A stretch of DNA of 64,000 bases from Rhizodiscina lignyota. Its lineage: Eukaryota; Ascomycota; Dothideomycetes; Aulographales; Rhizodiscinaceae. The stretch lies in the NCBI GenBank assembly GCA_010015805.1, contig ML978130.1, positions 806,001 to 870,000 on the forward strand, given 5' to 3'. The position numbers and the translations under genes were made by a program. The notes beneath the pieces are model-generated. The model was not told the DNA's origin and searched no databases. It worked only from the letters and a program-made list of their open reading frames with translations. Shown one piece after another: positions 26,136 through 50,526 of the stretch; within the stretch, counting starts at the first letter, position 1, and each line of letters opens with the position of its first letter.

Positions 26136-26234
26136 TACAATTTGGTATGCGCTGTTACCAAGACCGTTCAGCATCGATGTCATTCTAGGATCATCTCCGT
26201 CGCTGCAGGTGAAAGAGGTCTTCCACGATTCAAA

Positions 26235-28540: not shown

Positions 28541-29323
28541 ATGGCAGGACTCCTCCGGAACAAGTTTGTGGCTATCACGGGAAGCTCATCAGGGATTGGT
28601 CGAGCCACAGCAATTGCTTGTGCTAAGCAAGGTGGAAATCTGTTATTGCATCATCTTGGTGATTCCCGCGCAAAAGAGGACATTGCCACACTCCAGAAAG
28701 AATTAAAATCTATCGATCCGAAATTGGAATATGTCGACCACGGAGGCGATCTCACTCAACTTGGCGTCTCGGAAGCGCTGGTCAAGAAGGCAAAGGACTC
28801 ATTCGGAACGCTTGATGTCTTAGTCAACAACGCTGGCATCTGCAAGTTTGACGACTTCCATGCAGTTACCCGGGAGACTATGGATAGGCATCTTGCTGTA
28901 AACACCATTTCACCATTCTTCTTAACGCAGGCGGCTACGAGGTTGATGAAGGAGGGCGGACATGGTGGGAGCGTCGTCAACATCGCATCCATAACAGCGA
29001 CACAGGGCTCCTCCCAATTAACTCATTACGCTGCAACGAAGGCGGCTATCTTGGGCTTCACTTTCTCGGCCGCCGTGGCTTTGGGTCCAGATGGAATCAG
29101 GTTCAACAGCGTCTGTCCGGGGACGACCGAGACCAGCATGAACAAGGATGATCTAGACAAGGACGACAAGAGAACGAAGATGGCACTAGCAGTACCACTC
29201 CGACGGCTTGGAAAGCCAGAAGATATTGCTGGAGCGGTGGTTTTCTTTGCTAGCGACTTAGCCGCTTATGTCTCTGGCCAGTCGCTTATCGTTGACGGTG
29301 GCGCTAGCATCAACTATCAGTGA
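28541..29323 (+). CDS. SDR, L-rhamnose-1-dehydrogenase (LRA1)-like
   Basis: Intronless, 260 aa, classical SDR: TGSSSGIG cofactor loop (residues 14-21), NNAG, catalytic Ser in NIASITA, Tyr/Lys in HYAATKAA, CPGTTETSMNK, and SDLAAYVSGQSLIVDGG. From memory the nearest known group is fungal L-rhamnose-1-dehydrogenase, the NAD(P)-dependent first step of the non-phosphorylated rhamnose pathway. Shared features are the MxGLL N-terminus, HHLGD after the second strand, NK-DDL after the CPGT segment and the ASDLA-YV-G end. It could act on another aldose or polyol. No rhamnonate lactonase, dehydratase or aldolase is seen in this window. It opens the carbohydrate gene run, 594 bases upstream of a sugar transporter on the same strand. 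Confidence 0.85.
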   Translation: MAGLLRNKFVAITGSSSGIGRATAIACAKQGGNLLLHHLGDSRAKEDIATLQKELKSIDPKLEYVDHGGDLTQLGVSEALVKKAKDSFGTLDVLVNNAGICKFDDFHAVTRETMDRHLAVNTISPFFLTQAATRLMKEGGHGGSVVNIASITATQGSSQLTHYAATKAAILGFTFSAAVALGPDGIRFNSVCPGTTETSMNKDDLDKDDKRTKMALAVPLRRLGKPEDIAGAVVFFASDLAAYVSGQSLIVDGGASINYQ

Positions 29324-29917
29324 ATCCATCAAGTACGCCAGCGATTGCTATGAACTCATTTCCTCGCCTATTTGATATGCTTTGTTGCACGGTCAACAGC
29401 GGTGTAAGACCATTGTCCAGCCGGATGAGTTGTGCCGGACGATCGCTTGGATCCACAGTCACCTGGCTCCGGGGCATGTTCATGCAACATCATGTTTGAC
29501 TCGCTTACATACACTGCCGATCTAACCAGTCGTTCGCATCCCCAGAATCGTTGAAAGGGACTTCAAAGGATTTCAGGGCCTTCTCCGCAAATGCGGAGAT
29601 ACTTAGCGTTTCCACACGTGACACGAGTCATTGCACAAAGCTTGTGTTTGCCATATAACCGGTAACGGGTATCAGGCATTCATCAACTTCATGGGGTGGT
29701 AAGGGTTGGATGGCCATGATTGTATCGTGATACTGGGGTCTATTAAAAGGGATAAGGATCGCCCATGGAAGGCCCACAATTTGGATTCTTAAGTTGTGGA
29801 GAAGACCTTTCCTTCCTTTGCATTTCAACATATTTGAACTGTCATTTATCTGATTTCGCTGCGTCTCCATCTCTGTATCACTTCTATCTCGAGCAATTCT
29901 GACGACTTCCAACAACC
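29324..29917. promoter_or_regulatory. Promoter region of sugar transporter 1
   Basis: 594 bases without a gene. It carries the perfect palindrome at 29582-29599 and an AT-rich TATTAAAAGG stretch near 29741. Confidence 0.5.
29582..29599. promoter_or_regulatory. Palindrome, possible zinc-cluster factor site
   Basis: TCTCCGCAAATGCGGAGA: 8-base arms around a two-base centre, about 320 bases before the transporter ATG. It contains CCG-N6-CGG, an everted pair of the triplets bound by Zn2Cys6 factors. A related imperfect copy lies at 32069-32083 in the promoter of the next SDR. The function is inferred. Confidence 0.45.
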
Positions 29918-31678
29918 ATGGCCCCACGATTGGAAGGAGGATGGCTGACCGTCGGAATCACATTCACTTGTGGTATGGCCTTCATGTTGTTTGGATATGA
30001 TCAAGTAAGGCTCTATATATTCCAACTGCACCAGAAGTGGCCAAGTAAGCTAATTTAAGATCTAGGGAGTATTTGGCGGTCTGCTCAGCAACAAGCTGTT
30101 TCTGAGGACCTTCGGTAACCCTGATGCAACTATCCAAGGCCAAATCGTCTCGACGTACGACATTGGCTGTGTAAGTTATCTAAGATCCATGAGCGTTGCG
30201 GCGGTGATTTTACTTTCTCTAACGTTGCGTAGATAATTGGTGCGCTATCTTCCATTTTCGTGGCAGACAAACTCGGCAGGCGAAGGTCAATTCAACTGGG
30301 TAAGTTTGGATTTGTTGATGTTCCATTAGGACGTGTCCTAACCTTTCACTAGGCTGTTGCTTCGTTGTAGTCGGCGGATTGCTTCAGGCTACCGCATTCG
30401 GCCTCCCTCAGATGATTATCGGCCGTATCGTTGCAGGCTGCGGCACCGGTTTCAACACGACAGCTGTTCCAATCTACCAATCTGAAACCAGCAAACCCAC
30501 TGAAAGAGGCAAACTGATCGTACTTCAGCTCGTCCTCGTGCTATTCGGCATTGTGATCACGAATTGGATGAATTTCGGCTTCACCTGGGTCCCCAACAAC
30601 GATGTGAGCTGGAGGTTTCCACTGGCATTCCAGGATTTCTTTGCCATCGTCACCATCTTCCTTCTTTACATCATGCCCGAATCGCCAAGATGGCTCTGCC
30701 TTAAAGATCGCCATGAAGAAGCGCGAGTGGTTATATCAAAGCTCCTTGCCAAGCCTGTCGACGATTCCGAGGTCAACGAATCCCTTGAGTTGATGATCGA
30801 TAGCATCAGCCGCGAGCGATCAATGGCAAAGGTCGGCCTCCGCGAGATTTTCTCGAATGGCAGACATCAGACCTTCCGCCGCATTGCGCTAGGTGCTGGC
30901 ACGTCTTTCATGCAGCAAATCGGCGGCACAAATGTCATAGTGTACTACTTGCCGGTCCTTCTGGTTGATTCATTTGGTTTCAGCCAACGCTTAGCCCTGA
31001 TCCTCTCCGCTGTCGACTCAATCTCACTCATGATCTGGGGCTCGGTAGCATCTTTACTTATCGATCGCGTCGGTCGCAGAAAGCTTATGCTTTTCGGAGC
31101 CTTCGGTAACGCCATTTTCTTTGCCATTGCTGCGGCAGGCCTTAGCCAAGACACTAGAGGATGGAACGCGGTTGCAGTGACCGCAATTTTCCTTTACTAT
31201 GTCACCTACGTAAGTCTTCAAGATCGATAACCCCTGAAAATATAACACTGATCAGAATTAGGGTCTCTCCTTCCTGAGCATTCCATTTATGTACCCATCA
31301 GAGATCAACTCCCAACGCATGCGCAACACTGGGTCCGCCATTGCCATGATCACCAATTGGTTGTTCGTGTACGTTGTCGTCCTGATTACGCCGACCGGCG
31401 TCCAGAACATAGGCTGGAAGTTCTACATCATCTTTGCGGTCATCAATTTCTCGTTCCTCCCCTTGATCTGGTACTACTACATTGAAACAGCCAACATGAG
31501 TCTGGAAGAGATTGACCGCATGTTTGAGATCAAGTATGATGCCGGGAAGGAAATGACGTACAAGCAGGCTGCGAAGCGTGCCAGGGAAGAAGTCGAAGTG
31601 ACGAGACTGCAGATTGCTGAAGGCCAGAAGGCAAAGGATGGAGTGACGTATACGATCAGTCACACAGAGAAGGCATAA
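29918..31678 (+). CDS. MFS sugar transporter 1
   Basis: Exons 29918-30004, 30066-30170, 30233-30299, 30353-31209 and 31262-31678; four introns of 52-62 bases, all in phase; 510 aa. It is a twelve-helix plasma-membrane proton/sugar symporter of the fungal hexose/pentose family. Visible signatures are FGYDQGVFGGLL at the first helix, DKLGRRRSIQLG, GRIVAGCGTGFNTTAVPIYQSE (sugar-transport signature 2), PESPRWL, QQIGGTNVIVYYLP, DRVGRRKLML and ETANMSLEEID near the end. The C-terminal cytoplasmic tail is about 60 residues and basic. Substrate specificity cannot be read directly. Its place among polyol/aldose dehydrogenases suggests it imports the substrate of this gene run. The ATG (aaccATGG) is well placed and starts the canonical short N-tail. 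Confidence 0.95.
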
Positions 31679-32331
31679 AGGGGGGAGAAGTTGGAAGAAT
31701 GGGTCATCTTCCGGCATGCTCAACCGGGCAGCAAATCGCGCTGAGAAACTAGAATAAGGGGTGTTATCTCATTATCTCTCCAAAGAACATGTACATAAAA
31801 CAATTTCAGTGTTACTTTGAACATCATACAGACCGCCTGGAGCCCGTGAATGCTAGAGCTTGAGAGAACGATCCAGCTTGCCAGATGGGCCGGACTTGTC
31901 GTCAATACAAGTCGGTGACTTTATTAAAAGCCCGGAGACGGCCTCTCGGCAAGAATGTGGAGTGGCGTCGCCCAATGTGGGGTAGACACCTGAACGCCCA
32001 AAATTGCTTCTCTTCGTCGGCTTTATGCTCATTGCCCAATAACCCCTTATCCGCCGCCAGTGAACCGTTCTCCGCATTTGGAGCATGTGAACAGCAAACA
32101 CCGTGACTAGCCCCTCCCCGTCGTGCGGAATCGCTGGAGCGTTCGCAGCGGGAAAAGCTTCATGAATGCCATTCAAAGTGTTCGTCGATTAGAGCTCTCG
32201 TATGTGAAGTTTATTTCCCTCCCGTCTTCTTCCTCTGCTATTTCACTCGTCTCGATCTATCATCGCATAGCACTGTCTCTAGTGCAGCCCCTTTTGGAGT
32301 CTCATAACGAATTATTCGTTCACGCACAACA
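31679..32331. promoter_or_regulatory. Intergenic, promoter of SDR at 32332
   Basis: 653 bases, no supportable gene. It contains the imperfect palindrome at 32069-32083 and pyrimidine-rich leader sequence before the ATG. Confidence 0.5.
32069..32083. promoter_or_regulatory. Imperfect palindrome related to the one at 29582
   Basis: TCTCCGCATTTGGAG shares the left arm TCTCCGCA with the transporter palindrome and has a partial right arm. It lies about 250-265 bases before the SDR start. Candidate site for the same regulator; weak evidence. Confidence 0.35.
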
Positions 32332-33352
32332 ATGACCGCAACAGCCGGCATCACACTGCAGAGGACGACTGACTCGTTCTTGCATAATAATGTGTTCGAT
32401 CTTTTCTCTCTCAAAGATCGAGTTGTTGTGATCACTGGTGGAGCGAGAGGCATCGGTCTTGCACTTGCATTTGCTGTTGCTGAGGCAGGAGGACAAGTTG
32501 CAATCCTAGACGCTGCTCCAGATACCCATGAGCATTATAAGCTGCTTCAAGAGAGATGCTCGAAAGTAAAATACTACCAGTATGTGACAAGTAATTAGTC
32601 CTTGTTTCACGTGAGCTTGTAGCTGAGTCCGCAAATCCAGGTCAGATGTCACAGATTATGACAGACTGAAGGGCACATTTGTCGACATAGTTGAAGATTT
32701 TGGTCGCATAGATGGCCTGTGAGAGATATCTATTGATGTTTATCAGAGTTTTGATCTCTAATTTGAGAATAGTATCACCGCAGCCGGGATCTGTCCAGAT
32801 CAACCTTTTCTCGAGCGAGATCCGAAGAGCGTAGAGCGTTGCTTCAAGATTAATACCCTGGGGACGTATTACTGTGCTCAGCTTGCAACAAAGCAGATGG
32901 TGAAGCAAGGGAAGCGAACTTCAGCACCAACATCGAGTGCTGGCTCAATCGTGATGATTGCCTCCATCGCTGCTCACCAGGCGAGTAAGGGACAGTTCAC
33001 CAGCGATTATTGTTCAAGCAAGGGCGCAGTTCTTGCACTGGGCCAGCAGCTAGGAGCAGAATTGGCACCGGTTAATGTGAGGGTGAACTGCATATCCCCT
33101 GGGTAAGACGATCCTCCCGACGGCCATCAAGATGCTAAATCCAAACCATTTAGGTATATCATGACAGATATGACACTAGACATTGCCGATACTCGACCCG
33201 AATTGGCCCAGATCTTTGTCACGGAACCGCCAACGAAGCGAATGGGAGACCGAACTGACTTGAAGGGAGCGGCAGTTTACCTGCTCAGTGACGCAAGTGC
33301 ATATATGACTGGAGGAGAGCTGCTTATCACTGGTGGCATGCACGTAAATTGA
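32332..33352 (+). CDS. SDR, sorbose reductase / D-arabinitol dehydrogenase-like
   Basis: Exons 32332-32579, 32641-32718, 32773-33102 and 33154-33352; introns of 61, 54 and 51 bases in phase; 284 aa. A 28-residue N-terminal extension, ending FDLFSLKDRVVVITGG, precedes the TGGARGIG cofactor loop. This start is typical of fungal polyol SDRs (sorbose reductase Sou1, NADP-mannitol dehydrogenase, D-arabinitol 2-dehydrogenase). The active-site set is present: TAAG in place of NNAG, Ser in MIASIAAHQ, YCSSK, and the end SDASAYMTGGELLITGG. The NNAG to TAAG change is seen in this subgroup's relatives only occasionally and may matter. It probably reduces a ketose or oxidises a polyol in the cytosol. Confidence 0.9.
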
Positions 33353-33756
33353 ACAATGAGATTCCTGTCCTGATTGAGTGTGCTCTATCCATGGCCTCTA
33401 TTCTACAGCGGAACCACGAGAGATTATCACGTGCACAAGGGGTTCCAACCTCACTAGGCATCAAAGTTACTTTTCTTGAGAGAGAAATATTTTAAGCACG
33501 ATACATAAACTTGGGCAAGAAAGGGCCCATTTTGCACCAAGGGAATTTAGCGTGCCACTTGCATGTGGTATGCACTCTGCAGAGAGGGGCTGGCGCCACC
33601 ATTGCCTTAGGATATAGCCGACGGTTAACGTTCGCCGGAACTCTTCGTTGTGAACATTATTACTGTTTACGGAGCACTGAGAATCAATATAAATCGGACA
33701 AGAAAAGAATTATACTTTTATAGGGGAGAAATTTCAGTCTCAAAAGTTCATTCAAA
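33353..33756. promoter_or_regulatory. Promoter region of VOC gene
   Basis: 404 bases without a gene. A TATAAA box lies at 33688-33693, 64-69 bases before the VOC start codon. Confidence 0.5.
33688..33693 (+). promoter_or_regulatory. TATA box of VOC gene
   Basis: TATAAA within 'caatataaatcg', 64-69 bases upstream of the ATG at 33757. Confidence 0.55.
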
Positions 33757-34317
33757 ATGCCTGAAATTACACACAATCGCGTATTCAACCATGTTGCCGT
33801 TTCTGTAACTGACGTGGATGCCACTGTCGCGTGGTACTCGAAGGTGATCCATGCCATCTCATAACTGAAAGAAAAGAAATACTGATAGAAATAGGTGTTT
33901 GGCTTCAAGTTACTTGGGAAAATTACACACATTAAGCGTTCTGAGGCACCTGATGGCGCGATCTTTAGCATCTACCCGGAGAATCTCAATGAGGTGAAGC
34001 TCGCATACATGGCGACGGGCAACGGCGTCGGTTTCGAGATCTTTGAGTTTATCGATCCAAAACCAGAGCCGCAAGAGAGTTTTGCGTACCACAAGACTGG
34101 ATTCTTTCATGTATGCGTCACAGATCCAGATCCTGATGCGTTGGCGGACAAGGTTGTGGCGGAAGGTGGGAAGAGAATAGGGGTCACTGTGAACCCTGCG
34201 GCGAAGACAGCGGCTGGTCAGCCTGTGAAGTGTCTCTATACTGCAGATCCTTGGGGGCATGTTGTAGAGATTTTGGATGTCTCGTTTGAGTGGCTGGGGT
34301 GTAGGACTGCCTACTAA
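33757..34317 (+). CDS. VOC/glyoxalase-family protein
   Basis: Exons 33757-33843 and 33895-34317, with a 51-base intron; 169 aa. It belongs to the vicinal-oxygen-chelate superfamily (glyoxalase I, fosfomycin resistance, extradiol dioxygenase fold). Two beta-alpha-beta-beta-beta modules are visible. The first starts NHVAVSVTDVDATVAWYSKVFGFKLL, with a metal-binding-type His at residue 13. The second contains FFHVCVTDPDPDALADKV and ends CLYTADPWGHVVEILD, the usual Pro-Trp-Gly-His and Glu metal site. Likely a divalent-metal lyase, isomerase or epimerase acting on a small oxo-compound. The specific reaction is not determinable. It follows the SDR and precedes the aldo-keto reductase on the same strand. 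Confidence 0.92.
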
Positions 34318-34558: not shown

Positions 34559-35752
34559 ATGGCTGGGATGAATGGCGAGTTACGCCGGCATCCAGTGTGC
34601 ACGAAAAGAATAACTCTGAATAACGGTAAGGTGAGAACGATAACCGCCAAAGATGCAGCTCATTGACGTGCGACATAAGGTCTGGAAATTCCACTGGTTG
34701 GGCTTGGTACGTGGCAAGGTGCGTCTACTATCTCAATCCAGTAATCGGAGAGCAAGCCCCTGAATATCACGTTATTAGGCCAATTCGGAGCCGCTGGAGA
34801 AGACGAAAAGCTCAAGTCATCAATAATTCATGCCATCAAATCCGGCTACCGCTTGATTGACACCGCGCAATACTACGGCGTTGAAAGCGTCGTCGGTGAG
34901 GCAGTGCGGGAGTGCGGCATCCCGCGTTCAGATATCACAGTTGTCACCAAGTTCTGGCCTTCTCGCGGGCACGAGCCAGAGAAGGCGCTCGAGGAGTCAC
35001 TACGAGACATGAAGCTCGACTACATAGATGTACTGCTACAGCACTGGCCGGCTACTATGACACCGGATGAAAAGCCCTTGCCATATCCCGGAAAACCAAC
35101 ATTCATCGAAGTCTACAAGAGCATGGAAAAGCTCGTTGGCCCGAAGCTGAGAGCGATAGGCGTTAGCAACTACACACAGAAGTTGTTGACATCTTTGCTT
35201 CAGGAAGTTTCGATCGTGCCTGCAATTAACCAGGTGGAGCTGCACGCGCTAAATCCGAATTTGAAGCTCGTTCCGTTCTGTCAGAGTAGAGGTATCCAGG
35301 CCATGTCGTGGAGGTAGGCCTATCAGGACTTAATAGTCTAACACGCACTTTGAGATACGAACTTTGTATATTAACTTCGCAATAGCACCATGGGAAGCGA
35401 GCGACTACCCGGAGAAGAGAATCAGATTCTACACAACCCATTATTCACGCAGATTGCAAAGAACCACGACTGTTCCGCGGCAGTGGTATCTCTTTCATGG
35501 GCTGTGCAGCGAAATATCATCGTCATCCCGAAGAGCAGCTCGGTCAAGCGTATCGAAGAAAATATCAGGCTCGTAACGCTCTCCGACGAAGAAATGCAAA
35601 CTATCAATCAAGCCCACGAGAAGATATTCAAGTTGCGACTCTCAAACACGATCCCAGGGATGCAGTACAAGCTCAATGGGAAGGATACAATCCTCGGATG
35701 GTCGTATCAAGATTTCGGCTGGGAAGATGAACATGGTAATTGGCTACTGTAA
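34559..35752 (+). CDS. Aldo-keto reductase (aldose-reductase type)
   Basis: Exons 34559-34625, 34680-34718, 34779-35313 and 35386-35752; introns of 54, 60 and 72 bases, all in phase; 335 aa. It is a TIM-barrel NAD(P)H-dependent carbonyl reductase. The second exon is only 39 bases and encodes LEIPLVGLGTWQ, the signature opening of the family. The catalytic tetrad can be seen: Asp and Tyr in LIDTAQYYG, Lys in VTKFW, and His in LLQHWP. AINQVELH and IPKSSSVKRIEEN (cofactor 2'-phosphate site) follow. The family reduces aldoses to polyols (xylose reductase, glycerol dehydrogenase and others). Here it could supply the substrate of the polyol dehydrogenases nearby. The C-terminus FGWEDEHGNWLL is a clear non-peroxisomal end. 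Confidence 0.94.
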
Positions 35753-35999: not shown

Positions 36000-38326
36000 T
36001 CATTGCAAAAGCCCAACAGAATCGGTTGCTCCGAAATACGGTGGCATGACGAAATCAGGCGGCGTTTGAAAGGCACTCCCATCATCGAAGAACGTAGATA
36101 GCATCGGGTGCGTCGACCAAGACATCTCGTATCCGGCGACAGCGTTGGGATCTAACAAGCTGACGGCCGTCGGATGCTCCAGTGCGTGGAAGGAGTTCAT
36201 TGTAATATCCACTTCCGAGTCCAATGATGACTCCTGGTTGAGATTGCTAACCAGATTGTCGAAAAGCTTCATGATCCAAGGTGCAGGATCCCATGCCTGA
36301 ATGTTTGTTAGCACTTGACTTGGCCAAGGGAATTGATTAGCCTCACCTCTCTTATATCAGCCCAAGCCATCTGGCAGCTCACGAGTGCGGTCCGACCGAG
36401 CTGAGCCATGAGAGTTTGCGGACTCTTCATCTGCGTGTAAAAAACCACCTGAGCGAGGAAGATGCCCTGAAATGTCTCGTGTGGCATTATAAGCGGATTG
36501 GCCTTCGTGATTATCGTACAAGCTAGAGATGATATTCGCTGGGCTGCGATCTCCGGTATGTGTTGATCTGATTTACTCACGACAGAGCCAGTCTCGCTTG
36601 TCCCGATGTTCGAGTTCAAGTCTACGCGGCCCAAATGTGCAAGAATGAGGTGGTGATTATACTGAATTGACAACGACGAAGAGAAGACGCTGAGATTTAC
36701 AGCGTTGTCCGAAAAGCTCAGCTCCATGGGCAAGGACTTACGCCATGACTGCAGTCGTTCGTCGAGATTTGAGATGGTCGAAGCTTTTACGTGGGGCCTG
36801 TCTATACAAAAGCGAAACGAAACAATCTCTCGTAGGATAATGGCGAGCTCTGAAATCGCAATCTGGTAGAGGCCATAAGTGTTTCTCAACGGATGTTTTG
36901 CAAAATCTGGATCCCGCATGTCGTATTCAAAGTCCTCCATGGTCAGCATCTCTGTATCGGAATGTGTCATATCAATGCGGAATGGCCGACCGACGAGCGT
37001 CCCACATGATGCGTCCCGTACAACGAGAACCCACCAGAGACGTTTGAGGAGACTGCGGTCTTGAGGATTCATGTTCGTTCCAGCCATCGACCGGTGTATT
37101 CCCATGGCTTCTGCAATGGTCACGCCAGTCCCAATCCAGCTGTAGAAGTTCCAGTAGTTATTCGGCCCGCCTCCCCACATAGTCATGAGAATGACGCTTT
37201 GCAGGATTGTGATCTTATTAGCCTCGTAACCCATATCAAACAATGCTTTCGCTTTCCTGTAGAAAGAGAATCGCGCTTGCTTGCGCCCTGCGAATCCCGC
37301 GCGATGGAGAATAGCGAGTGGGCAGAACGTTGCTGAAGCAAAACAAAGAGCGTGGAGCAGAATCCAAGCAATCTTTTTCGCTTTATATTGCTGCATGAAT
37401 TCCTGCCTGTTCACGATTGGATAAAGCGGGTAGACTCTATCCATAAAGGACCCAATCAATGCATCCAAGATTTCTTGCGAGGGATGGTCAAATGCCTCCT
37501 TTGCATTCAGGAAGGCAATATCTTCTGGAAGCATATGTCCAGGGTGCAGGGTCTCTGAGGGCTTTTCAATCTGCATGACCTGAGACTCTAGCAACGGTGG
37601 CCCCGGATGATGCAGTCTGAGTTTGCCATTCTCCTTGAAGTCTTCCATCACCATTGAGAGGGGAAAAGATTCTCCAAGATATGTGATGGAGCATTTGTCA
37701 ATCATGTTCTTCTTGTCCCGGCGACTCTCCAAGAAATGGTCCAGCATCGCCGCCCAGGAAATCTCGCGATATGAAGTCGCGCTTGAGTCGGAGAGGCCAG
37801 ATTCAGGGGAGGTGCCATCGATGCCGGTCGGAACGGAGGAAACTGTTGTCGCAGGCGTCTCATGGGAAATAGGCGCAGTTGATGGGTGGTCTCTTTCCTC
37901 ATGCACAGTGGGCGCTGGAGGCGGCGGTGGCGGTTGGTTGTCCGTTTCGCTCAACGATGTACTTGATCGTCGAAGCTGATGGCTGGCATGATCGACTCCT
38001 GCGTACCGGCTAGAGCTTGGCGAATCTGGCGTATGTCCTGATGGGCCATCTCTTCCGTCATTCGATGCTGGAACAACATTGATTGTGGCTGCTTCCGCGT
38101 CTATTTGAGTGGTATGGTCCTTTCGGGGATGATCGAACTTCGCCTTCTTCCGTGCATATGTGCCTCTTCTTGATTGAATAAGCACACAGTCACTAGGACG
38201 AACATCGCTTGCTTTGCATCGGGAGCAGGGTGTCCCTTTTTCCAGCGCGTCGCATTTGACCCGCCGCTGATTGCAGCGTTTGCATGCCTTTGCGGCCCTT
38301 AGCCTCACGGGACCTTCGACGGCCAT
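36000..38326 (-). CDS. Zn2Cys6 transcription factor, candidate cluster regulator
   Basis: Exons 36347-38326 and 36000-36296, with a 50-base intron (gtgagg...cag); 758 aa. An N-terminal zinc cluster at residues 15-48 reads CKRCNQRRVKCDALEKGTPC then CSRCKASDVRPSDC-type spacing, with six cysteines. A basic linker follows (RRGTYARKKAKFDHPRKD), then a Ser/Pro-rich region with a polyproline run near 130-140. The fungal_trans domain spans about 280-560 (IDALIGSFMDRVYPLYPIVN, ATFCPLAILHRAGF, SWIGTGVTIAEAMGIHR, RLWWVLVVRDASCGTLVGRP). The middle region resembles the cutinase-factor (CTF1)/XlnR-like family. It lies in the middle of the carbohydrate run, divergent from a polyol dehydrogenase, a typical position for a pathway-specific activator. 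Confidence 0.93.
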
Positions 38327-38740: not shown

Positions 38741-39944
38741 ATGTCGGCCACAACAGCTTCCACAGGGACCATCCAGGCCCTCCGCCTCCATGCTAAGAAG
38801 GACATCCGCGTTGATCAAATAGCATCTCTGTAGGCATTCCTATCCCTGCATAGCAATCGCCACGCCAGCACTCACATATTTCAGACCCTGCAATTCTGAT
38901 GAAGTGAGAGTTCAAATTGCATACTGTGGTGTATGCGGCTCAGACTTGCACGAATATCTATCAGATCCAATCTTCACGCCAGCACCGGGGACAAAGAACA
39001 AATGGACAGGCGTCGAGCTTCCCATTCCGCTCGGTCACGAGATGTCCGGCACTGTCACAGAGGTTGGCAACGATGTCAGTGGAGTCCAAGTCGGCCAAAA
39101 GGTAGCAATCAATCCAGCTCTTGATGACAGACACTACGGCGCAGAGCTCTGCTCCTCATGCAAGACTGGCAAGATCAACATCTGCAAACGCTTTGCAACT
39201 TACGGCTTGAGCGCTCCAAGCGGCGGATTCTCAACAGAAGTTGTTGTAAAGCGATACAACATCCTTCCACTCCCAGACAACGTGCCGCTGAAAGTAGGTG
39301 CGCTTGCGGAACCTTTGGCGGTTGCTTGGCATGCAATCCGATTATCTGGGTTCCAGAAGGGCCAAAATGCGCTGGTTCTTGGTGCTGGGCCTATCGGACT
39401 TGCTATTCTATTGCTCTTACGAGTTTGGGAAGCTGGTAAGGTCATTGTGACGGAAGTCACAGATGCACGCAAAGCACAGGCCGCGAAATTCGGGGCAGAC
39501 TTGGTCGTCAATCCCCTCCAGAAGATCCTGGATGGTGCAGAAGGCGACGAACTTGACCCGGTCATCAACGCCGTCCGAAGCTCCACTGAAGATGGTGTAG
39601 ACGTTGCCTTCGATGCGACTGGCTTACAGTCGACTCTCGACACAGCACTGAAGGCAACGAGACCAGGAGGAACAATTTTCAATGTGGCAATCCATGAGAA
39701 GCCATTGCAACTCAATTTGAACGACATTGCATGCTTCGAAAAGAAACTCTTAGGAGGAATATGTTACACTTACGAGGACTTCGAGGCCGTCATCAAAGCG
39801 ATGAGCTCTGGGAAGATTCCGTTCGAGCAGATGATCACAGCCGTCGTTCCCTTGAGCAATGCTGTAGATGGTGGATTCGAAGAGCTCGTGCGTAATAAGG
39901 CGAAACACGTGAAGATATTGATTCAGCCAGATCCAGCTTCTTGA
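38741..39944 (+). CDS. Zn-dependent (R,R)-butanediol dehydrogenase-like / polyol dehydrogenase
   Basis: Exons 38741-38829 and 38885-39944, with a 55-base intron (gtaggc...ttcag); 382 aa. It is a medium-chain dehydrogenase/reductase. Catalytic zinc ligands are seen in YCGVCGSDLHEY and in the GHEMSGTVTEVG segment with its His-Glu pair. The structural-zinc loop is cysteine-bearing (LCSSCKTGKINIC). The Rossmann motif is GAGPIG near residue 200. The 27-residue insert after GSDLHEY (ending APGTKNKWTGVELPIPLGHE) is characteristic of fungal 2,3-butanediol dehydrogenases (Bdh1/Bdh2 type) as against sorbitol dehydrogenases. It oxidises vicinal diols or reduces acetoin-like ketols with NAD(P). It shares a promoter region with the Zn2Cys6 factor. 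Confidence 0.92.
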
Positions 39945-40661: not shown

Positions 40662-41777
40662 TTAATCTGACGTTATTATGCATTTCACCAAATCCGCCGG
40701 CTTCGCTAATACCAACTTCAACGCGTCTGCTGCCTTCTCCAGGTCATACGTATGCGTGACGAGCTGCTTCAAGTCCAATCTACCCGATTTTACCATTTCG
40801 ATGGCCGTGTCAAAGGTATTCGTGTATCTCCATAGTCCCAATAGGTCGATCTCTCGTACTCCAGCGCCTCCAATGTTGATATTTTGCACTGGTGTACCTA
40901 GTCCGACCAGTACCACCTTTCCTCCGGATGCGCAGACCTCGATGCAGGTGTTGACGCACGTGTCAATGCCGGTACAATCGAAAACCACATTTGCTCGATC
41001 AAATCCTGGATGTTGTAGTATCTCTTGTCCTATGCGAGCCGCAAAGTCAGGTTTGGACTCTCCTTCCTGTCCTTTCAATGGCATAGTGAAAATGTGGTCC
41101 GCCATCCCTTTCTTTTTGGCAAATTCAAGCCTTGACTGGTCAATATCAATCATTCCGATCTTCGAGGCGCCCGAAAACTTGGCTATGCTCGCACATAGCA
41201 AGCCAACTGCACCAGCACCGACAATAATTACCGACTGGCCAGCTCTTAACCCACTCCTTCGGATCGCATGTATCGCAACACTGGTTGGCTCGATCATCGC
41301 ACCCTCGATATACGACATATCCTCCGGCATCAGGTACACAGAATCCGCTGGTCGATTATAGATTTGTTGTAAACTGCCCCCGATGGGCGGAAATATGCTC
41401 GCGGACCCGATAAACTTCAACTTCGTACATAAATTATACGTTCCCTCTTTGCAGTGATTGCATTTCCGACACGCAACCTGTGGCTCCACGACTACTCTAT
41501 CGCCGACTTTGATACTCGTCACATCGGAGCCGACAGCAACCACGTCGCCGCAGGCTTCATGTCCAAGTATGAGCGGGTGGCCAGAGAGAATAGGATATGG
41601 TCCATTTTTGCCGTTTTGGTAGTAGTGCATATCTGAGCCACAAATACCTGATGCACGCGGGCGGATTTGGACTTCATCAGGTGCAGGTAAAGCTGTAGGG
41701 ACATCCTCAAGGCGGAGATCCTGTGCACTGTAGAGAAGCGCCGCTCTGTGGGTCTTGGAGGAACCGTTGGCCGCCAT
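40662..41777 (-). CDS. Xylitol/sorbitol dehydrogenase-like polyol dehydrogenase
   Basis: Intronless, 371 aa from the ATG at 41777 (MAANGSSKTHRAALLY). The open frame reaches 41789 but has no ATG there. It is a medium-chain zinc dehydrogenase of the sorbitol/xylitol/L-arabitol group: SGICGSDMHYYQNGKNG (catalytic Cys), GHPLILGHEACG (His/Glu), a structural zinc loop CRKCNHCKEGTYNLC with four cysteines, and the GAGAVG cofactor motif near 185. GICGSDMHYYQ-G is the recognised opening of polyol dehydrogenases that turn xylitol, sorbitol or L-arabitol into ketoses with NAD. The absence of introns contrasts with the neighbouring genes. It lies 3' of the BVMO on the same strand, 527 bases apart, so the two are tandem, not divergent. 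Confidence 0.93.
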   Translation of the reverse strand: MAANGSSKTHRAALLYSAQDLRLEDVPTALPAPDEVQIRPRASGICGSDMHYYQNGKNGPYPILSGHPLILGHEACGDVVAVGSDVTSIKVGDRVVVEPQVACRKCNHCKEGTYNLCTKLKFIGSASIFPPIGGSLQQIYNRPADSVYLMPEDMSYIEGAMIEPTSVAIHAIRRSGLRAGQSVIIVGAGAVGLLCASIAKFSGASKIGMIDIDQSRLEFAKKKGMADHIFTMPLKGQEGESKPDFAARIGQEILQHPGFDRANVVFDCTGIDTCVNTCIEVCASGGKVVLVGLGTPVQNINIGGAGVREIDLLGLWRYTNTFDTAIEMVKSGRLDLKQLVTHTYDLEKAADALKLVLAKPADLVKCIITSD

Positions 41778-42304: not shown

Positions 42305-44067
42305 TCATGATGCGATCGCAGACCCAAAGTGACGAAGATGCTCGATGAGAGGCTTCAGCGTGCCAGCCTGACGCAGAACAAATACTTCTCCCAAGATACC
42401 CAGAGTGAGCGTTCCTGCTGCATATTTCCATGCCGGGTGCATTGGGTGCTTGCCCTTGCCACCAGAGGTGTTGAAGTCCTTCCAGACCGGCCAGTAGAGT
42501 TGCCACCTTTTTGGCGTTAGCATCTTGAAATTGTTGCATTTGATAGGGAGTGACTTACCAGAATAACCATGTGTTATCTGGAGAGTTTGTCGTGTTGCGT
42601 CCGCTTTCATCCAAGTTCCAGTTGCTGCAACCCGCACTCCACACCATATCCTTGAGGCGCGACTGCACGTCATTCGCATAACGAGTCTCGGCCGCCTCTT
42701 TGACATCAATCACCTTGAAGTCATTCTTCAGGATTGGCTTGATCATCGCCTTGATGATGTATTCTACCTGCACTTCGTGTGTGTAAATCACAGAGTTGTC
42801 TGTGAACTGTCAGATTAAACCCGTATTCAGCCAGAGAAGTGGAATACTTACGTGCTGGGAAAGCATTGGGGCCAAAGACGATTCCAAAGTTGGGGAAACC
42901 AGTAACGAATGTCGCGTTGTAAGCTTGAGCTCCTCTGGTGTTCTTCCAGTGCTCGTTGATCGTGATGCCACCCTTGCCCTTGACGACTATCGGGCACAAA
43001 AAGTCCTGGATCTTGAAGCCTGTACTGAGGACAATAGCATCGACATCGATCTCGCGCTTGTTGGTCTTGATACCCGTCTCGGTAAAGCATTGAATCGGCT
43101 CTGTGGTCAGCTCAATGTTGGGGCTGTGGAGACACTCAAGGTAGCCAGGGTCAAAGAGGCGTCGTTTGCAGCCAAGCGGAAACTTCGGGATGAGTATGTC
43201 GTGATACTTCTCCGGCGCTGTCGTTTTCATGTACCAGATGGCGTGCTCGGTAACTTCTCCGCGGTCCCGGACAGACCTTGCACTTTCGGAGGAGTAGAGG
43301 TGGTGGAGCGCATCGGTGTTCTTCCAAAGGTAAAACCGGTAGATCCTATTCCACAGAGGGACATATCTGAAGCACCACTTTTGAAAGGCACTAAACTCGC
43401 TGTTTGGCCGCTCATGAATCCACTGTGGACTCCTTTGGAACTGATAGACCTGCTTCGCTTGCTTCACGATTTCGGGGACCAGTTGAGCTGCTGAACAGCC
43501 ATTCCCAACAACAGCAATGCGCTTGTCTTTCAGGTTGTAGTTGTGGTTCCATCTAGCAGAATGCCAAATTTCTCCCTTGAAGTCTTTCCAGCCCGGAATA
43601 TCGCAGTCTTTGGGTATTGAAATCGTGCCGACGCAAGAGACAAGCATCTCCGCCTCTTTGAAGTACTTGTGTCCGGTCTCAAGGTCATGGAGACCTACAC
43701 GCCACACGCCCTTACCTTCGACCCATGTGGCATCGACAACTTCAGTACCCAGTCGCACATGGGATCGGATACCAAATTTGTCGACGGTGCCATTCAGGTA
43801 CTTGAGAATCTCAGCTTGCTCCGCGAACCGTTTTGACCAATCAGGGTTGAGATTGAAGGAAAAGGAATACAGATGCGAATCAACATCGCACCCAACGCCT
43901 GGATACGTATTAAGGTACCACGTTCCTCCCAATGACTTCTCTCGTTCGTAAATCGTGAAGTTATGGTATCCAACACGTGTCTTGAGGTTCGCTGCAAGTG
44001 CAATGCCCCCGACGCCACAGCCAATGACTATGAGACGGGGTTCGTCGCGCGTGGGAGGAGGCGCCAT
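42305..44067 (-). CDS. Flavin monooxygenase of Baeyer-Villiger type
   Basis: Exons 42852-44067, 42559-42799 and 42305-42506; two 52-base introns in phase; 552 aa. It is a class B flavoprotein that inserts oxygen into ketones (giving esters or lactones) using FAD and NADPH. Seen are the FAD motif GCGVGGIALA (residues 16-25), SLGGTWYLNTYPG, the BVMO fingerprint FKGEIWHSARW followed by Asn where Pro or Asp is usual, and the NADPH motif VVGNGCSAAQ. The second intron needs the later acceptor (ctaac branch, aaaaag); the earlier AAG would create an in-frame stop. The C-terminus reads ...TSGGKGKHPMHPAWKY and may be membrane-associated. It is divergent from the transketolase-like gene. Confidence 0.93.
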
Positions 44068-44762: not shown

Positions 44763-46847
44763 ATGAACGGCCACCTCGAAACCAACCCCGCGACGAAGCA
44801 GCAGTTTACCGACGATGAGCAGGCTGTTCGAGATATTCGAAAGTTGGTGATTGACTGCTGTCGTCAAAATGGAGCAGGTCACGGAGGCTCTGCCATTGGC
44901 ATGGCTCCGCTTGGTGTTGCGTTATGGAAACACATCATGAGGTACAACCCGAAGAATGGTGATTGGTTCGATCGCGATAGATTCGTACTGTCAAATGGAC
45001 ATGCTGCAATCTTCCTATATACGATGCTCCACATGGCAGGATACCCTGATATGAAGCTTGACGAGCTGAAGATGTATGCGGATCCAAAGAATGTGGACCC
45101 AGAGACTGGCAAATGGAAACACACTATATGCCATGGTCATCCAGAGATCGATGTGTCCGGTGTTGAGGTCACGACTGGCCCATTAGGGCAGGGCGTTGCA
45201 AACTCGGTTGGTTTGGCAATAGCTGCGAAGTCTCTTGCTACAAAATTCAACAAGGACGGGCACGATATCATTAGCTCCCGCATATACTGTGTCACCGGCG
45301 ACGGCTGTCTCCAGGAAGGTGTTGCCAACGAGGCTGTTGCCATTGCTGGCCACTTGCAGCTCGACAACCTCATTCTTCTTTACGACAACAACCAAGTGAC
45401 TTGCGATGGCCCAGCTGACTGGATTGTGTCTGAGGACACCAATGCAAAGTTCAGATCAATGGGCTGGCACGTCATTGATGTGTTTGACGGCGATACCTCT
45501 GTGGACAATATAGTCGGCGCTGTCAACATTGCCAAAGCCGTAACAGGCAAGCCCACATTGATCAACATTAGAACGACAATAGGATACGGCACCTCCACCG
45601 CTGGCACGGCCAAATCACACCACGGCACTTACTCTTCTGAAGATGCCGTTCTCTATGCTGAAGATGTCAGCAAATCTGAAGCACATGTTGTCTCTTCCAG
45701 GACCAAGGCACTATTCGCAACGAAGGCCAAGCAGGGTGAGAAGCTCGAGCAAGAGTGGAATGCCAAACTGGAAAGCTACACGAAGGCATTCCCTGAACAA
45801 GGCAAGGTGCTCCTGGGTCGTATAGAGGGCAAGATTGAGTACGAAGACCTTCTAAAGACTTTTGAGATGCCCAAGGACCTCATGCCTACCCGAACATTCA
45901 ATGGCAAGCTTTTCAAAAACCTTGTCGCAAGCATTCCGAGCGTTATGGCCGGCGGTGCAGATCTCTGGGGCGCGAATCAACTCGGAGATTATTCACACAC
46001 AATTTTTGACGGGAAGCATAGAGATGGACAGGTCATACGCTATGGCATTCGGGAGCACGCCATGGCTGCCATCTCAAACGGCCTTGCAGCATACTCTCCG
46101 GGAACTTTCTTGCCCATCACTGCGACATTCTTCATGTTCTACCTCTACGCCGCACCGGGAGTCCGCATGGGGGCACTGCAAAATCTGAAAGTCATCCACA
46201 TCGCTACACACGACACACTTGGCGAAGGTCAGAATGGTCCGACGCATCAACCAGTAGAAGTCGACTCACTGTATCGCGCAATGCCCAATTTGCTCCACAT
46301 CCGAGCTGCAGATCCCGAGGAAGTTGTTGGAGCGTGGCAGACTGCTCTGTCTGTCAAGGGCAAGTCGATTATCATTGGTCTTGCCAGAGATCCTCCCAAG
46401 GTTGCGATACCCAACAGTGACAGGAACAAGGTCGCAAAGGGAGGCTACGTCGTTGTTGAGAAGGAGAATGCACAAGTCACCCTCATTTCCACTGGATCAG
46501 AGCTCCAATTTGCAGTCGTAGCTGCAGAGAAGCTCAGCGCTGAGGGTATCGTGACCAGAGTCGTAAGCATGCCCTGCATAAAGCTCTTCGACGAACAAAG
46601 CGAGGAGTATCAAGACTCTGTGCTGTCGGAGACTCCACACATCATCTCTCTTGAGGCATATGTGTCGACCATCTGGGCTCGATACTGCACTGCCTCGATC
46701 GGAATGACAACTTTCGGATACTCTGGATCAGGCAATGCGAACTTTGCGAGGTTTGGTCTTGACGATAACGGCGTGTTCAAGAAGGTTAAGGCGCATGTGC
46801 AGAAGACTGGGAAGGGTACGAAGCAGAAGCGCTGGGTCCAGCTGTGA
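44763..46847 (+). CDS. Transketolase family, dihydroxyacetone-synthase-like
   Basis: Intronless, 694 aa from the ATG at 44763 (atcaagcATGAACGG); the frame opens earlier, at 44604, but that segment is unlike the family. It is a thiamine-diphosphate enzyme that moves two-carbon ketol units between sugar phosphates. Seen are the TPP site GDGCLQEG ... YDNNQVTCDG (the GDG-x-NN motif), GHPEIDVSGVEVTTGPLGQG, and the central domain GIREHAMAAISNGLAAY and DTLGEGQNGPTHQPVE. ICHGHPEI, GHLQLDNLI and YDNNQVTCDG are closer to dihydroxyacetone synthases, which use formaldehyde as acceptor, than to housekeeping transketolase. The C-terminus KRWVQL lacks the peroxisomal signal of yeast DHAS, so the enzyme should be cytosolic. 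It may feed a pentulose phosphate or other ketose from the cluster into C3 metabolism. Confidence 0.9.
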   Translation: MNGHLETNPATKQQFTDDEQAVRDIRKLVIDCCRQNGAGHGGSAIGMAPLGVALWKHIMRYNPKNGDWFDRDRFVLSNGHAAIFLYTMLHMAGYPDMKLDELKMYADPKNVDPETGKWKHTICHGHPEIDVSGVEVTTGPLGQGVANSVGLAIAAKSLATKFNKDGHDIISSRIYCVTGDGCLQEGVANEAVAIAGHLQLDNLILLYDNNQVTCDGPADWIVSEDTNAKFRSMGWHVIDVFDGDTSVDNIVGAVNIAKAVTGKPTLINIRTTIGYGTSTAGTAKSHHGTYSSEDAVLYAEDVSKSEAHVVSSRTKALFATKAKQGEKLEQEWNAKLESYTKAFPEQGKVLLGRIEGKIEYEDLLKTFEMPKDLMPTRTFNGKLFKNLVASIPSVMAGGADLWGANQLGDYSHTIFDGKHRDGQVIRYGIREHAMAAISNGLAAYSPGTFLPITATFFMFYLYAAPGVRMGALQNLKVIHIATHDTLGEGQNGPTHQPVEVDSLYRAMPNLLHIRAADPEEVVGAWQTALSVKGKSIIIGLARDPPKVAIPNSDRNKVAKGGYVVVEKENAQVTLISTGSELQFAVVAAEKLSAEGIVTRVVSMPCIKLFDEQSEEYQDSVLSETPHIISLEAYVSTIWARYCTASIGMTTFGYSGSGNANFARFGLDDNGVFKKVKAHVQKTGKGTKQKRWVQL

Positions 46848-48824
46848 AAGCGATGCTGGACATCTATTCAAAATGATGGCCACGACTATGCATTCCACTT
46901 TATGGAGTTGGTTACTATTGCTGCTGGGCTTTCAGGAACGAAGAACCAAGTGTTCGCTAAAGGTCGCTCTCTGATATTTAACTCGATTTGCTGATATCTT
47001 CGGAATGCATATAATCACGGACGGCTTGTATGACAAAATTTTGCAAAAACTCTATACACTTAGACCGATTGAACGATTCAAATGAACACAAGTTCCCTGA
47101 AGTAAACTTTCATACTAAGCATCCCCGGCTTTACCCCCTTTAATGCCACTCCTGAAGGCCGCGAGGCCGAAAGCCCGGCCATGCAGCCTATCTGCTCTTG
47201 GACTCTGCTCTCTCGCCTCCGACATCTGGTCCGGGCGAATGCAGAATGGTAAGAGTCGTATGACATTGGTAGATGAGACCGAACTAAGAGCGTCCAGAGA
47301 AATGACAAACCATGCGGACACGGCTCCCGGAGTGGTTTGCCAGAGGTCTGCTTTCAATTTGAAGGATTCGGCAACGGCAAGACCGTAATGATCTACAAAG
47401 GTTCTCAAAGTCCTAGGCACTCGCGGCACTCTGTATTGCTCGTCCAGGAGTCCGGTTATGCTGCTGCTTCGTCGAAGGATCCTTAATCGGGTGGCTGCGC
47501 ATTTCAAATGTTCATTAGTATGGACTCAGTGGAAAAGTCTGGATTTCACTGGCCTGCTCAAGCACACGGCTTGCTCAACTCGAGCGCATCGTAACTCCTG
47601 AGGCATGTTCTGACCAGGCTGCAATCATTGGATAGACGCATGATCAGAGTGGAGACCATTTTGCCGCACCACATCACATCGCTTGGACCACTCCTGACAA
47701 GGTTGTTCTGATAGGTCAATTGGGTTGCAGTGGTACCTCTTGCATGCCTAGAGGATGATAATTATTTGCAATTGGCCGGATCGCAGACGACTCTGGGCAG
47801 ATCGAGGTCACGCCAGAATCTGTGGCCCTCCCAAATCCTACCAGACGCGCATCTCATTGAATCTAGCCTCTATCAACATGACAGAGAGCTAAATAAACCT
47901 TCAAGCGAATAGATGAACCTGTAAGAATGGATACTCGGCTTTACGTGGAGTGCGGGCTGCAGATGTCCACTGTGGACTGACTAAGTCAGACTATGGTGAA
48001 CGACTCAGAAAATGGAGAGAATGATTTGCAAAGGAGATAACATTGGAGAGCGTATAGCCGATGAATTGTATTGAGAAATATGCCCACTCATAAATCCAGC
48101 ATCAACGTGGACGGCGAACAACAGGCGTCGCTATTAATGGCGAAATCGAGACTTAGTTTGAAATGGAGAGGCACAGGATCCAGGATGACTTCGCACGAAG
48201 CCTCTAGGCCATGCATAAGCTCTCGGACAATATTCTGCGCCGTAACTATGAGCTGCATCTCCGCTGTGAAGCGAACGAAGCGTCGCGTCTTAGAGAGAGA
48301 ACGAGAGAGACGATGAACGTCATGAACCACGCGACCGCACATGACTCGGAGGATAGTTGCCGTCCAATAATCCAAGGCAGCTCAGCCGCGGACTTTAATC
48401 TCTTCCGAGTCAGATGCGGCAGCGCTATGACCAGGATGCATTCTTCCCCAACCTGCGTTCATTCCACCCTCCTGGGCCTCCACTCTTTTCCCCAGAATCC
48501 ACTCACTTAGCCTCTGAATCGTCTCGTCCTAAGGATTCGGGTCACATAGCCGCGCTAAAACTGCATACAGCCGCGTGAAATCATGCCAAACTGCCTCAAG
48601 AAACTGGCTTCGAGCAGGAGCGGTTATGTGGAACCGCTTACGCGACGGTGCGGTCTCTTGATAAAAACGTGCAAATACTTTCTATATTTCTTTGGTTTCA
48701 AGATCTTCTTTTGTTTTCGTATCCGGCCGTCTGGCTATAGATCTCATTTGCTGCTTTCACGCATTTTGTGCATAGAAGAAGCATTTACTCCACGGCCCAC
48801 GGCTCCACGGTAACGCAGATCATT
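46848..48824. other. 2-kb intergenic region before sugar transporter 2
   Basis: No gene I can support. Two minus-strand frames (47115-47507, 130 codons, and 48088-48375, 95 codons) are open but unrecognisable. A purine-rich GAGA stretch lies near 48290-48312. The distal end carries the inverted repeat at 48619-48638 and GTGCGGTC near 48648, likely in the transporter promoter. Confidence 0.5.
48619..48638. promoter_or_regulatory. Inverted repeat, CGG-N10-CCG
   Basis: AGCGGTT then ATGTGG then AACCGCT: perfect 7-base arms containing CGG-N10-CCG, a spacing bound by some Zn2Cys6 dimers (for example Put3). It lies about 190 bases before the transporter-2 ATG. Candidate regulator site; function inferred. 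Confidence 0.45.
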
Positions 48825-50526
48825 ATGGGGAAAGGAGATGCTTGGTTCAAGGCCGGACGGCCTACGCAGTTGGCCATCACCTACACGTGCCTCTCAGCAT
48901 TCGTACTGTTAGTCTTCTCAACGAGCAATGTCACAACATGGTAACTGATATGTATTCAGGTTTGGATGGGATCAGGGCGTCTTCGGTGGTCTTGTCACAA
49001 ACCCCGATTTCCTTGATATCGTCAAACATCCTGACCCAGGCTTTCTGGGAATCATTGTCTCGATTTACAACATCGGATGCTTCTTAGGATGTGCCATGAA
49101 CTTCTACGTTGGCAAGAGATTCGGGCGACGAGAGGCAATCGGAATTGCCATGGCCTTCATTTCAGTCGGCGGGCTAATCCAATGTTCCACGTACTCTGTA
49201 AGTCTAATCGTTCACTGATCACGACGAGAGATCTGATTCTAACATGTTTCAAAAGACAGCACAACTCATGGTTGGCCGTATCATCACCGGATTCGGCGTC
49301 GGAATCGACACGTCCACGGTACCCATGTACCAGGCAGAACTTTGCAAGCGTGAACACCGTGGCCGTCTTGTCACCACAGAAGTCCTCTTCACCGCACTGG
49401 GAGTCTCAGGCGCGTACTTCTTCGACTTTGGTCTCAGCTTTGTCGACGGCCCAGTTGCCTGGCGCCTGCCAATCGCTCTACAGATTCCAATGGCTTTCAG
49501 CGTCGCCGCGCTAGTGTACGGACTACCAGAGACGCCTCGTTATCTCGTTCAGAAAGGGCGGATTGACGAGGCTGTGGCTGTCATGTCCAAAGTTTGGAAT
49601 GCACCAGCGGATGATCCGTACATCGTGGCTGAGAAGGAGGACATCATCAAAGCTATCCACCTCGAAGAGGTCGCCCCCTTCAAGTGGCGAACCATCTTCA
49701 AGCGCGACCCCATGCAGACAGGCTGGCGTGTCTTCTTGGCTTGTCTCGTGCTCTTCATGAACCAATGGGCCGGGATCAACGTCATCGTGTTTTATGCCGC
49801 CACCGTCCTTGAGGGTATCGGTCTATCGCGCAATGCGTCCATTGTCGCCGGCGGCTGCCTCAACTTGGCATTTGCCGTAGGTTCGCTCGTACCTGCACTT
49901 GGCGCAGACAAGCTCGGCCGTAGGAAGCCGATGATGTTTGGCGCATTCGGAATGGGTGTGAGCATGATGATGGTTGCTATTCTACTGAGCTTCCAAGGCA
50001 AGAAAGTCGGTCACGCAACGAGCGAGGCGAGCATTGCGTTCTTGATCACGTACATGATCTGCTTTGGAGCCAGCTTGAACGCCATTCCGTGGTGCTACTC
50101 CACGGAGATCCTGCCTCTAAAGATCCGTGCACAGGGCACAGCGCTCGCGGTGTTCAACAACTGGATCTGGGTGTTCCTGATCGTCATGGTCACGCCAACA
50201 ATGGTTGCAAACATCGGATGGAAGACGTACCTTGTGTTCATGGCATTCGTAAGACACCTTCCTCATACTTCCCCGGGCCTTCACATCTGACTTTTTTACA
50301 GAACTTCTCTTTCGTACCAGCAATCTACTTCCTGTTCCCCGAGACAAAAGGTCTCTCGCTTGAGGAGATCGATTACATCTTCCTGAAGGGCGACGAGTTG
50401 CCGGCAGAAGAGCGCCAGTTCTACCAAAACAGCGTCTCAGGACAGGGCGCTGGTGCTGGCGCCTCGCCGGAAACCGACAGCCAAGAGGTCGAGAAGTCGG
50501 CGACACAGGTGGAGAAGGTAGCGTGA
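48825..50526 (+). CDS. MFS sugar transporter 2
   Basis: Exons 48825-48907, 48960-49197, 49256-50248 and 50302-50526; introns of 52, 58 and 53 bases in phase; 512 aa. It is a twelve-helix proton-coupled sugar porter, plasma membrane. Signatures are FGWDQGVFGGL, GKRFGRREA, GRIITGFGVGIDTSTVPMYQAE, PETPRYL, NQWAGINVIVFYAA, DKLGRRKPMM and PETKGLSLEEID. A Ser/Gly/Glu-rich, probably disordered tail of about 45 residues ends the protein. It is a different lineage from transporter 1, judging by differing helix sequences and a different intron pattern, so the run carries two importers, not a recent duplication. It marks the right end of the carbohydrate region; the next gene is housekeeping. Confidence 0.95.

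Follow-up and report, generated by a model that had tools for sequence, protein, structure and literature searches.

Genes and features at the locus

Eleven neighbouring genes occupy positions 28541-50526 of a 64,000-nucleotide stretch of the Rhizodiscina lignyota genome (contig ML978130.1, here C10, positions 806001-870000; this whole stretch is called the window), and they are considered here as a candidate catabolic gene cluster. The genome comprises 33.4 Mb in 29 contigs, and short introns and Zn2Cys6 genes are present in the window, as in filamentous fungi. Pfam matches back the family of each of the eleven proteins (Table 1), which confirms the observation of an earlier sequence-only reading that eleven genes of these families lie side by side. 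Two Sugar_tr transporters, two short-chain dehydrogenases (SDRs), two zinc MDR dehydrogenases, an aldo-keto reductase (AKR), a Glyoxalase/VOC protein, an FMO-like protein with Baeyer-Villiger monooxygenase (BVMO) motifs, a transketolase and a Zn_clus plus Fungal_trans factor make up the run, so that transporters, several enzymes and a regulator are assembled in the manner of a fungal catabolic gene cluster. Transporters had been predicted at both edges; MFS2 does form the right edge, but the left edge is SDR1, with MFS1 standing second. By Pfam matches, no kinase, aldolase, dehydratase or lactonase is among the eleven.

Gene models were obtained with a purpose-written gene finder that scores codon log-odds and splice signals and was trained on the window. 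It returned 23 genes in the window; the VOC gene and the pieces of SDR2 came from a second, less stringent pass over the gaps. The models of SDR2, AKR and MFS1 (exon 4) were corrected by hand at splice sites; MFS1 had been matched to Pfam with exon 4 still starting at 30371, before that start was moved to 30353.

Table 1. The eleven cluster genes and the two border genes, in window coordinates.
Feature	Position	Strand	Exons	Pfam	Remarks
SDR1, short-chain dehydrogenase	28541..29323	+	single exon	PF13561	
MFS1, sugar-transporter family	29918..31678	+	29918-30004, 30066-30170, 30233-30299, 30353-31209, 31262-31678	PF00083	
SDR2, short-chain dehydrogenase	32332..33352	+	32332-32579, 32641-32718, 32773-33102, 33154-33352	PF13561	
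VOC/glyoxalase-family	33757..34317	+	33757-33843, 33895-34317	PF00903	169 aa
AKR, aldo-keto reductase	34559..35752	+	34559-34625, 34680-34718, 34779-35313, 35386-35752	PF00248	
Zn2Cys6 transcription factor	36000..38326	-	36000-36296, 36383-38326	PF00172, PF04082	746 aa
BDH-like zinc MDR dehydrogenase	38741..39944	+	38741-38829, 38885-39944	PF08240, PF00107	
Sorbitol/xylitol-dehydrogenase-like (XDH-like) zinc MDR	40662..41777	-	single exon	PF08240, PF00107	
Type I BVMO-like flavoprotein	42305..44067	-	42305-42506, 42559-42799, 42852-44067	PF00743	
Transketolase (DHAS-like)	44763..46847	+	single exon	PF00456, PF02779, PF22613	694 aa
MFS2, sugar-transporter family	48825..50526	+	48825-48907, 48960-49197, 49256-50248, 50302-50526	PF00083	
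LeuB-type gene	26235-27460				left border; TIGR00169 404 bits, cut-off 353
HAT_KAT11 gene	50853-52544				right border

Among solved structures, the XDH-like MDR was nearest to ketose reductase 1e3j, sorbitol dehydrogenases, L-arabinitol 4-dehydrogenase 3m6i and xylitol dehydrogenase 7y9p. The AKR carries its Asp, Lys and His motifs and has 4fzi, a prostaglandin F synthase, as nearest solved relative, and the YxxxK motif is present in both SDR1 and SDR2. For SDR1 the sole solved sequence at E<=1e-45 was 7b81 (also 7do5, 7do6 and 7do7), titled SDR. Its best NCBIfam model was NF053807, Lra1 (L-rhamnose 1-dehydrogenase), at 262 bits against a cut-off of 400, which is weak evidence, since this library serves bacterial and archaeal proteins. 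The VOC protein likewise scored below cut-off with TIGR03645 (118 vs. 262 bits). The BVMO, whose nearest solved relative is phenylacetone monooxygenase, contains the fingerprint FxGxxxHxxxW (FKGEIWHSARW at 163) and the second BVMO motif; the residue following the fingerprint is N instead of the usual P or D, so the protein departs from the strict form FxGxxxHxxxW(P/D).

BVMOs, SDRs, VOC proteins and Zn2Cys6 factors are common in secondary-metabolite and detoxification clusters. The run might then be one of these, with the oxidoreductases and the BVMO tailoring or degrading a small molecule and the transporters acting as exporters, and a VOC copy on contig C5, which sits with a P450 and an EthD-like protein as read by eye, agrees with such a role. 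However, Pfam gave no match to polyketide synthase, non-ribosomal peptide synthetase, terpene synthase or P450 families among the eleven, so that the core of a secondary-metabolite cluster is missing, and a transketolase, two polyol-type dehydrogenases and two Sugar_tr transporters suit catabolism better. This explanation is accordingly considered improbable.

A transketolase probably distinct from the yeast-type housekeeping enzyme

Three transketolases were found in the genome, one in the cluster and one each on contigs C13 and C1. The C1 copy is of the yeast type, with 815 bits to yeast transketolase vs. 473 bits for the cluster copy, and in a tree containing 26 of 30 bacterial rows, those long enough to be included, the cluster and C13 transketolases grouped together at 100/100, apart from the C1 copy. 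The description of the cluster enzyme as dihydroxyacetone synthase (DHAS)-like in the sequence-only reading appears to hold as far as separation from the yeast-type housekeeping enzyme goes, in a tree that has no characterised DHAS and places the protein on a long branch. By these measures the predicted protein probably falls outside the yeast-type housekeeping group, and any use of formaldehyde would be putative.

The cluster transketolase carries the transketolase domains and the residues of the thiamine diphosphate site, and most substrate residues are kept relative to yeast, while its TIGR00232 score is 629 bits, below the cut-off of 682. Its C-terminus, VQL, is presumably not a standard peroxisomal signal. 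N491 occupies the position of yeast Asp477, and A404 that of yeast Ser386. A scan of bacterial genomes with the cluster transketolase alone recovered 30 bacterial transketolases at 32 to 38% identity, all of which have Asp at the D477 position (30/30) and nearly all Ser at the S386 position (28/30, plus one Ala and one Thr); the same scan with a two-row alignment confirmed no relative. Asp was also present at the D477 position in all of five solved transketolase chains (two near-copies among them), and the C13 transketolase keeps both Asp and Ser. Yeast dihydroxyacetone synthases may also carry Asn at the Asp477 position, in which case N491 would be a mark of the family and not a novelty.

In the E. 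coli transketolase, D469 is the counterpart of yeast Asp477 (ungapped match of 1-74 to 434-507), and S385 is taken by us to be that of Ser386. These two E. coli residues are sites that engineers alter, shifting substrate choice, according to the excerpt available of PMC10787763, so that the cluster enzyme would represent a natural transketolase altered at two positions that are otherwise changed deliberately. Further, yeast transketolase couples two unphosphorylated glycolaldehydes reversibly to L-erythrulose, as stated in the accessible part of PMC5573996, which makes an unphosphorylated ketose a chemically fair substrate.

A second transketolase has been described before. The A. niger metabolic model lists, in the portion available, TktA (2.2.1.1) and a second transketolase, TktC (2.2.1.3) (PMC9781776), so that such an enzyme is known in ascomycetes. 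Dihydroxyacetone synthase/TktC (EC 2.2.1.3) resembles the cluster enzyme in being a second, non-housekeeping transketolase type, but unlike the described TktC, the cluster transketolase sits in a run with dehydrogenases and transporters.

Recurrence of cluster modules elsewhere in the genome

All eleven proteins were searched against the fungus' own genome, and closest copies of several were found next to each other in separate groups. On contig C11 (828-842 kb; C11:828112-841541), an AtuA gene, a Fungal_trans regulator, an SDR, a sugar-family transporter, an AKR and a BVMO form a row, possibly a catabolic cluster for a terpenoid or branched compound. This row holds the closest copies of SDR2 (C11:833537-834681, 63% over 273 residues) and of the BVMO (43% over 449 residues), and its transporter and AKR match MFS2 at 28% and the cluster AKR at 34%, respectively. 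On contig C13 (C13:293178-299854), an MDR stands between a transketolase and a sugar transporter, the latter two being the closest copies of the cluster transketolase (45%) and of MFS2 (C13:298053-299854, 50% over 515 residues, 383 bits vs. 189 for the next); the nearest solved relative of this MDR is L-arabinitol 4-dehydrogenase (198 bits vs. 144 for the next). On contig C1, the closest copy of the BDH-like gene (C1:444244-445362, 55-56%, 420.6 bits vs. 199.9 for the next) adjoins a VOC relative. Smaller groupings were also seen, as a BDH-like MDR lies beside an MFS2-type transporter (44%) on C20 (94.7-98.1 kb), and an AKR, an SDR and an MDR lie together on C19 (313.7-318.0 kb). For the XDH-like gene no one closest copy stands out, matches on C4, C20 and C19 scoring alike among several comparable MDRs.

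To quantify this recurrence, stretches of 22 kb were scored for eight families. These families were picked from the C10 cluster itself, so only the test that excludes this cluster counts. With it excluded, two stretches held at least four of the eight families, whereas 2000 circular shifts of the family positions gave a mean of 0.057 and only two shifts reached 2; eight stretches held at least three families (shift mean 2.0; 0/2000 reached 8). Two pairs of closest copies lay within 10 kb, SDR2-BVMO on C11 and transketolase-MFS2 on C13, while in 100,000 random draws of family members at least one such pair occurred in 10.4% and at least two in 0.56%. These results indicated that, with the C10 cluster excluded, the families cluster more than chance under random shifts of their positions. 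For both tests, loci were compiled from search listings, with exon hits merged and weak rows dropped (at about E >1e-5, somewhat stricter for SDR and not uniformly). The shift test covered 27 of the 29 contigs, the other two being without a hit, and for 21 of these 27 the length was an estimate, taken as the position of the last hit plus 50 kb; the draw test used 63 of 103 non-self SDR loci and had two transketolase copies to draw from. Neither null allows for accessory metabolism genes tending to group together in general.

The location of closest copies in separate groups on C11, C13 and C1 suggests that several functional units may be joined in the cluster, and tempers the earlier proposal that all eleven genes serve one pathway. 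The main rival to a single catabolic cluster therefore consists of modules doing different jobs: a C11-type unit (SDR2, AKR, BVMO and sugar-family transporter) for a cyclic or terpenoid-like alcohol or ketone, a C13-type unit (MDR, transketolase and MFS2) for a polyol, and BDH-VOC for something else, with a shared neighbourhood and no shared pathway. That the units are found apart on the three contigs speaks for it, as does the fact that the C11 run adjoins an acyclic-terpene-utilisation AtuA gene; in addition, the part of PMC7842363 available depicts a BVMO and an SDR as syntenic neighbours of a cluster for aromatic catabolism in Aspergillus. Nevertheless, all units here share a single 22-kb run and a single regulator, flanked by the LeuB-type and HAT_KAT11 genes, and nothing shows them answering different cues, so we consider such a supercluster rather unlikely.

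SDR1 and MFS1 led to closest copies in other settings. For SDR1 the closest copy (43%) is on C4 (C4:1895472-1897449) and adjoins a lactonase-type Amidohydro_2 gene; no other cluster family was found in the 10 kb examined around it, and two MDR matches and one regulator match lie 12 to 21 kb off. The closest copy of MFS1 is at C5:1754973 (56%). A duplicate of the whole cluster at C5:1755k was ruled out, only the MFS1 copy being present within the 50 kb around the match.

Proposed function

A genuine catabolic cluster, modular in its assembly and with a polyol/ketose core, is supported by the gene content, the flanks and the re-use of neighbourhoods. Our preferred reading, held at a probability of roughly 0.45, is that the eleven genes form a catabolic cluster under local regulation that serves a poly-hydroxylated carbon source, built from modules also found separately in this fungus. 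MFS1 and MFS2 would import the compound, and an NADPH-type AKR together with NAD-type MDR and SDR dehydrogenases would interconvert aldose, polyol and ketose, the cofactor types being putative assignments by sequence rules. The specialised transketolase would move a two-carbon unit from the ketose to a sugar phosphate of the pentose phosphate pathway, an entry that would make a dedicated sugar kinase unnecessary. The order from polyol to ketose to transketolase is suggested by the protein families. SDR2 and the BVMO may work as one unit, in which a secondary alcohol is oxidised to a ketone and cleavage next to the ketone follows, BDH and VOC may form a further unit, and the central Zn2Cys6 protein would turn the set on.

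The dehydrogenase core has parallels in known fungal systems. Oxidoreductive sugar catabolism (L-arabinose/D-xylose and galactitol; AKR, LadA, XdhA and SdhA) likewise combines an AKR and SDH/XDH-like dehydrogenases with sugar transporters. The fungal pentose route ends in a xylulokinase. In the galactitol route as described, a kinase phosphorylates fructose, and the glycerol, galactitol and galactose routes of the A. niger model use kinases or aldolase, as given in the excerpt of PMC9781776. Unlike these oxidoreductive sugar routes, the C10 cluster is without a kinase and has a transketolase instead. As for the BVMO, the Aspergillus 3-hydroxyanthranilate cluster likewise holds a BVMO and an SDR, but comprises aromatic pathway genes, with no transketolase or sugar transporters noted in the available part of the paper (PMC7842363); the joint recurrence of SDR and BVMO there and on C11 fits a chemistry from alcohol to ketone to ester. 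A literature search at the level of titles and abstract beginnings, with subscription papers mostly outside it, found no fungal cluster with this gene set and no role of a TktC-type transketolase in such a cluster.

An L-rhamnose pathway was considered for the cluster and rejected, as the partner genes are lacking. The fungal L-rhamnose cluster encodes the LRA1-LRA4 pathway, and SDR1 scores best with the Lra1 model, yet under its cut-off. Unlike in the LRA cluster, lactonase, dehydratase and aldolase are absent among the eleven genes, while a candidate SDR and Amidohydro_2 pair is present on C4. With the sub-cut-off score and this C4 copy, SDR1 is not read as rhamnose-specific; the C4 SDR, as part of a candidate dehydrogenase/lactonase pair, appears the likelier rhamnose gene.

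A bolder version of the preferred reading is a kinase-free polyol pathway. Here an unphosphorylated ketose made by the MDRs and SDRs would be split by the transketolase, changed Asp to Asn and Ser to Ala, with two-carbon units passing to the pentose phosphate pathway; the shortened aldose would be reduced by the AKR and recycled, and SDR2-BVMO would cleave alpha-hydroxyketones, for example a cyclitol-derived ketone, to an acid and an aldehyde. We regard this full scheme as a long shot. If the preferred reading is right, a fungal route for sugar alcohols would feed into central metabolism via a transketolase, not a kinase. A large catabolic cluster together with its component modules in one genome would, moreover, allow cluster assembly to be studied within one organism.

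Evidence against a single regulated pathway

A number of results weigh against this reading. The families concerned are large, with at least 43 BVMO, 105 SDR, 46 MDR and 69 sugar MFS loci in the genome, so some neighbours in the cluster may be passengers, and the modules that occur apart at other loci may serve unrelated functions. The recurrent neighbourhoods are also incomplete: the C13 stretch, one of the two with four families, counts a weak AKR match 13 kb from its transketolase; the VOC relative on C1 (C1:446399-447163) seems eroded, with the middle of the protein unmatched, and is not the best match of the VOC protein, whose closest copy is in a different setting on C5 (C5:98431-98973). 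The top-scoring copies of the AKR, Zn2Cys6 and VOC proteins have no closest copy of another cluster gene next to them, and in the 50 kb around C5:1754973, of 13 proteins compared, only MFS1 and MFS2 matched, at the same gene. In the transketolase tree, the program warned of long branches meeting, the cluster protein being on such a branch. The proposal is weakest at its BVMO and VOC steps, and no BVMO acting on sugars is known to us.

The promoters did not reveal shared control either. Nine promoter-bearing intergenic regions of the cluster were compared with twelve others in the window, the latter including weak models and one plain open reading frame (61192-63066). Of 200 label permutations, 28 equalled or surpassed the best shared 6-mer, and 55 of 300 Markov resamples did so for the best CGG pair; CGG-N10-CCG occurred in 5/9 cluster promoter regions vs. 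5/12 others. CGGTTA was present in 5/9 vs. 2/12. The copy loci gave no clear excess of the motifs, which were counted 3, 3, 5 and 0 times in 12 of their promoter regions (9497 bases). A shared regulator site in the cluster promoters was therefore rejected, no motif exceeding chance. These results neither support nor exclude control by the central Zn2Cys6 factor. Overall, the earlier interpretation is partly supported: gene content, borders and recurring neighbourhoods fit a catabolic cluster with a polyol/sugar core and its own regulator, but the motif tests for shared control were not significant.

The same observations bear on generic clustering, that is, an accessory oxidoreductase-rich stretch without a pathway. 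The large families and the want of a significant shared promoter motif are in its favour, as are the closest copies of MFS1 and SDR1, which have no other cluster families nearby (within 50 and 10 kb, respectively), and a shift test that does not model any general tendency of such genes to cluster. Yet the co-occurrence of the families elsewhere exceeds random shifts, and closest copies are adjacent, which makes generic clustering a poor explanation. The regulated catabolic cluster remains our preferred reading.

Neighbouring genes and minor observations

Within the cluster, about 2 kb between the transketolase and MFS2 (46848-48824) is without a gene model; a pseudogene there was rejected, no match better than E = 0.1 to the proteins compared being found. 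A stand-alone hydratase-2/MaoC gene lies end to end with the LeuB-type gene (25242-27460) directly to the left of the cluster, and further left a weak minus-strand model with an SDR-like reading in seven small exons was placed at 23080-24005. Right of the HAT_KAT11 gene, an NmrA-like gene and a FAD-binding monooxygenase-type gene (53722-56704) add further oxidoreductase-type genes near the cluster. The VOC copy on C5 belongs to a small metabolic cluster of its own (C5:96108-103376), with an SDR, an alcohol dehydrogenase and another aldo-keto reductase, and with the EthD-like protein and the P450 seen by eye.

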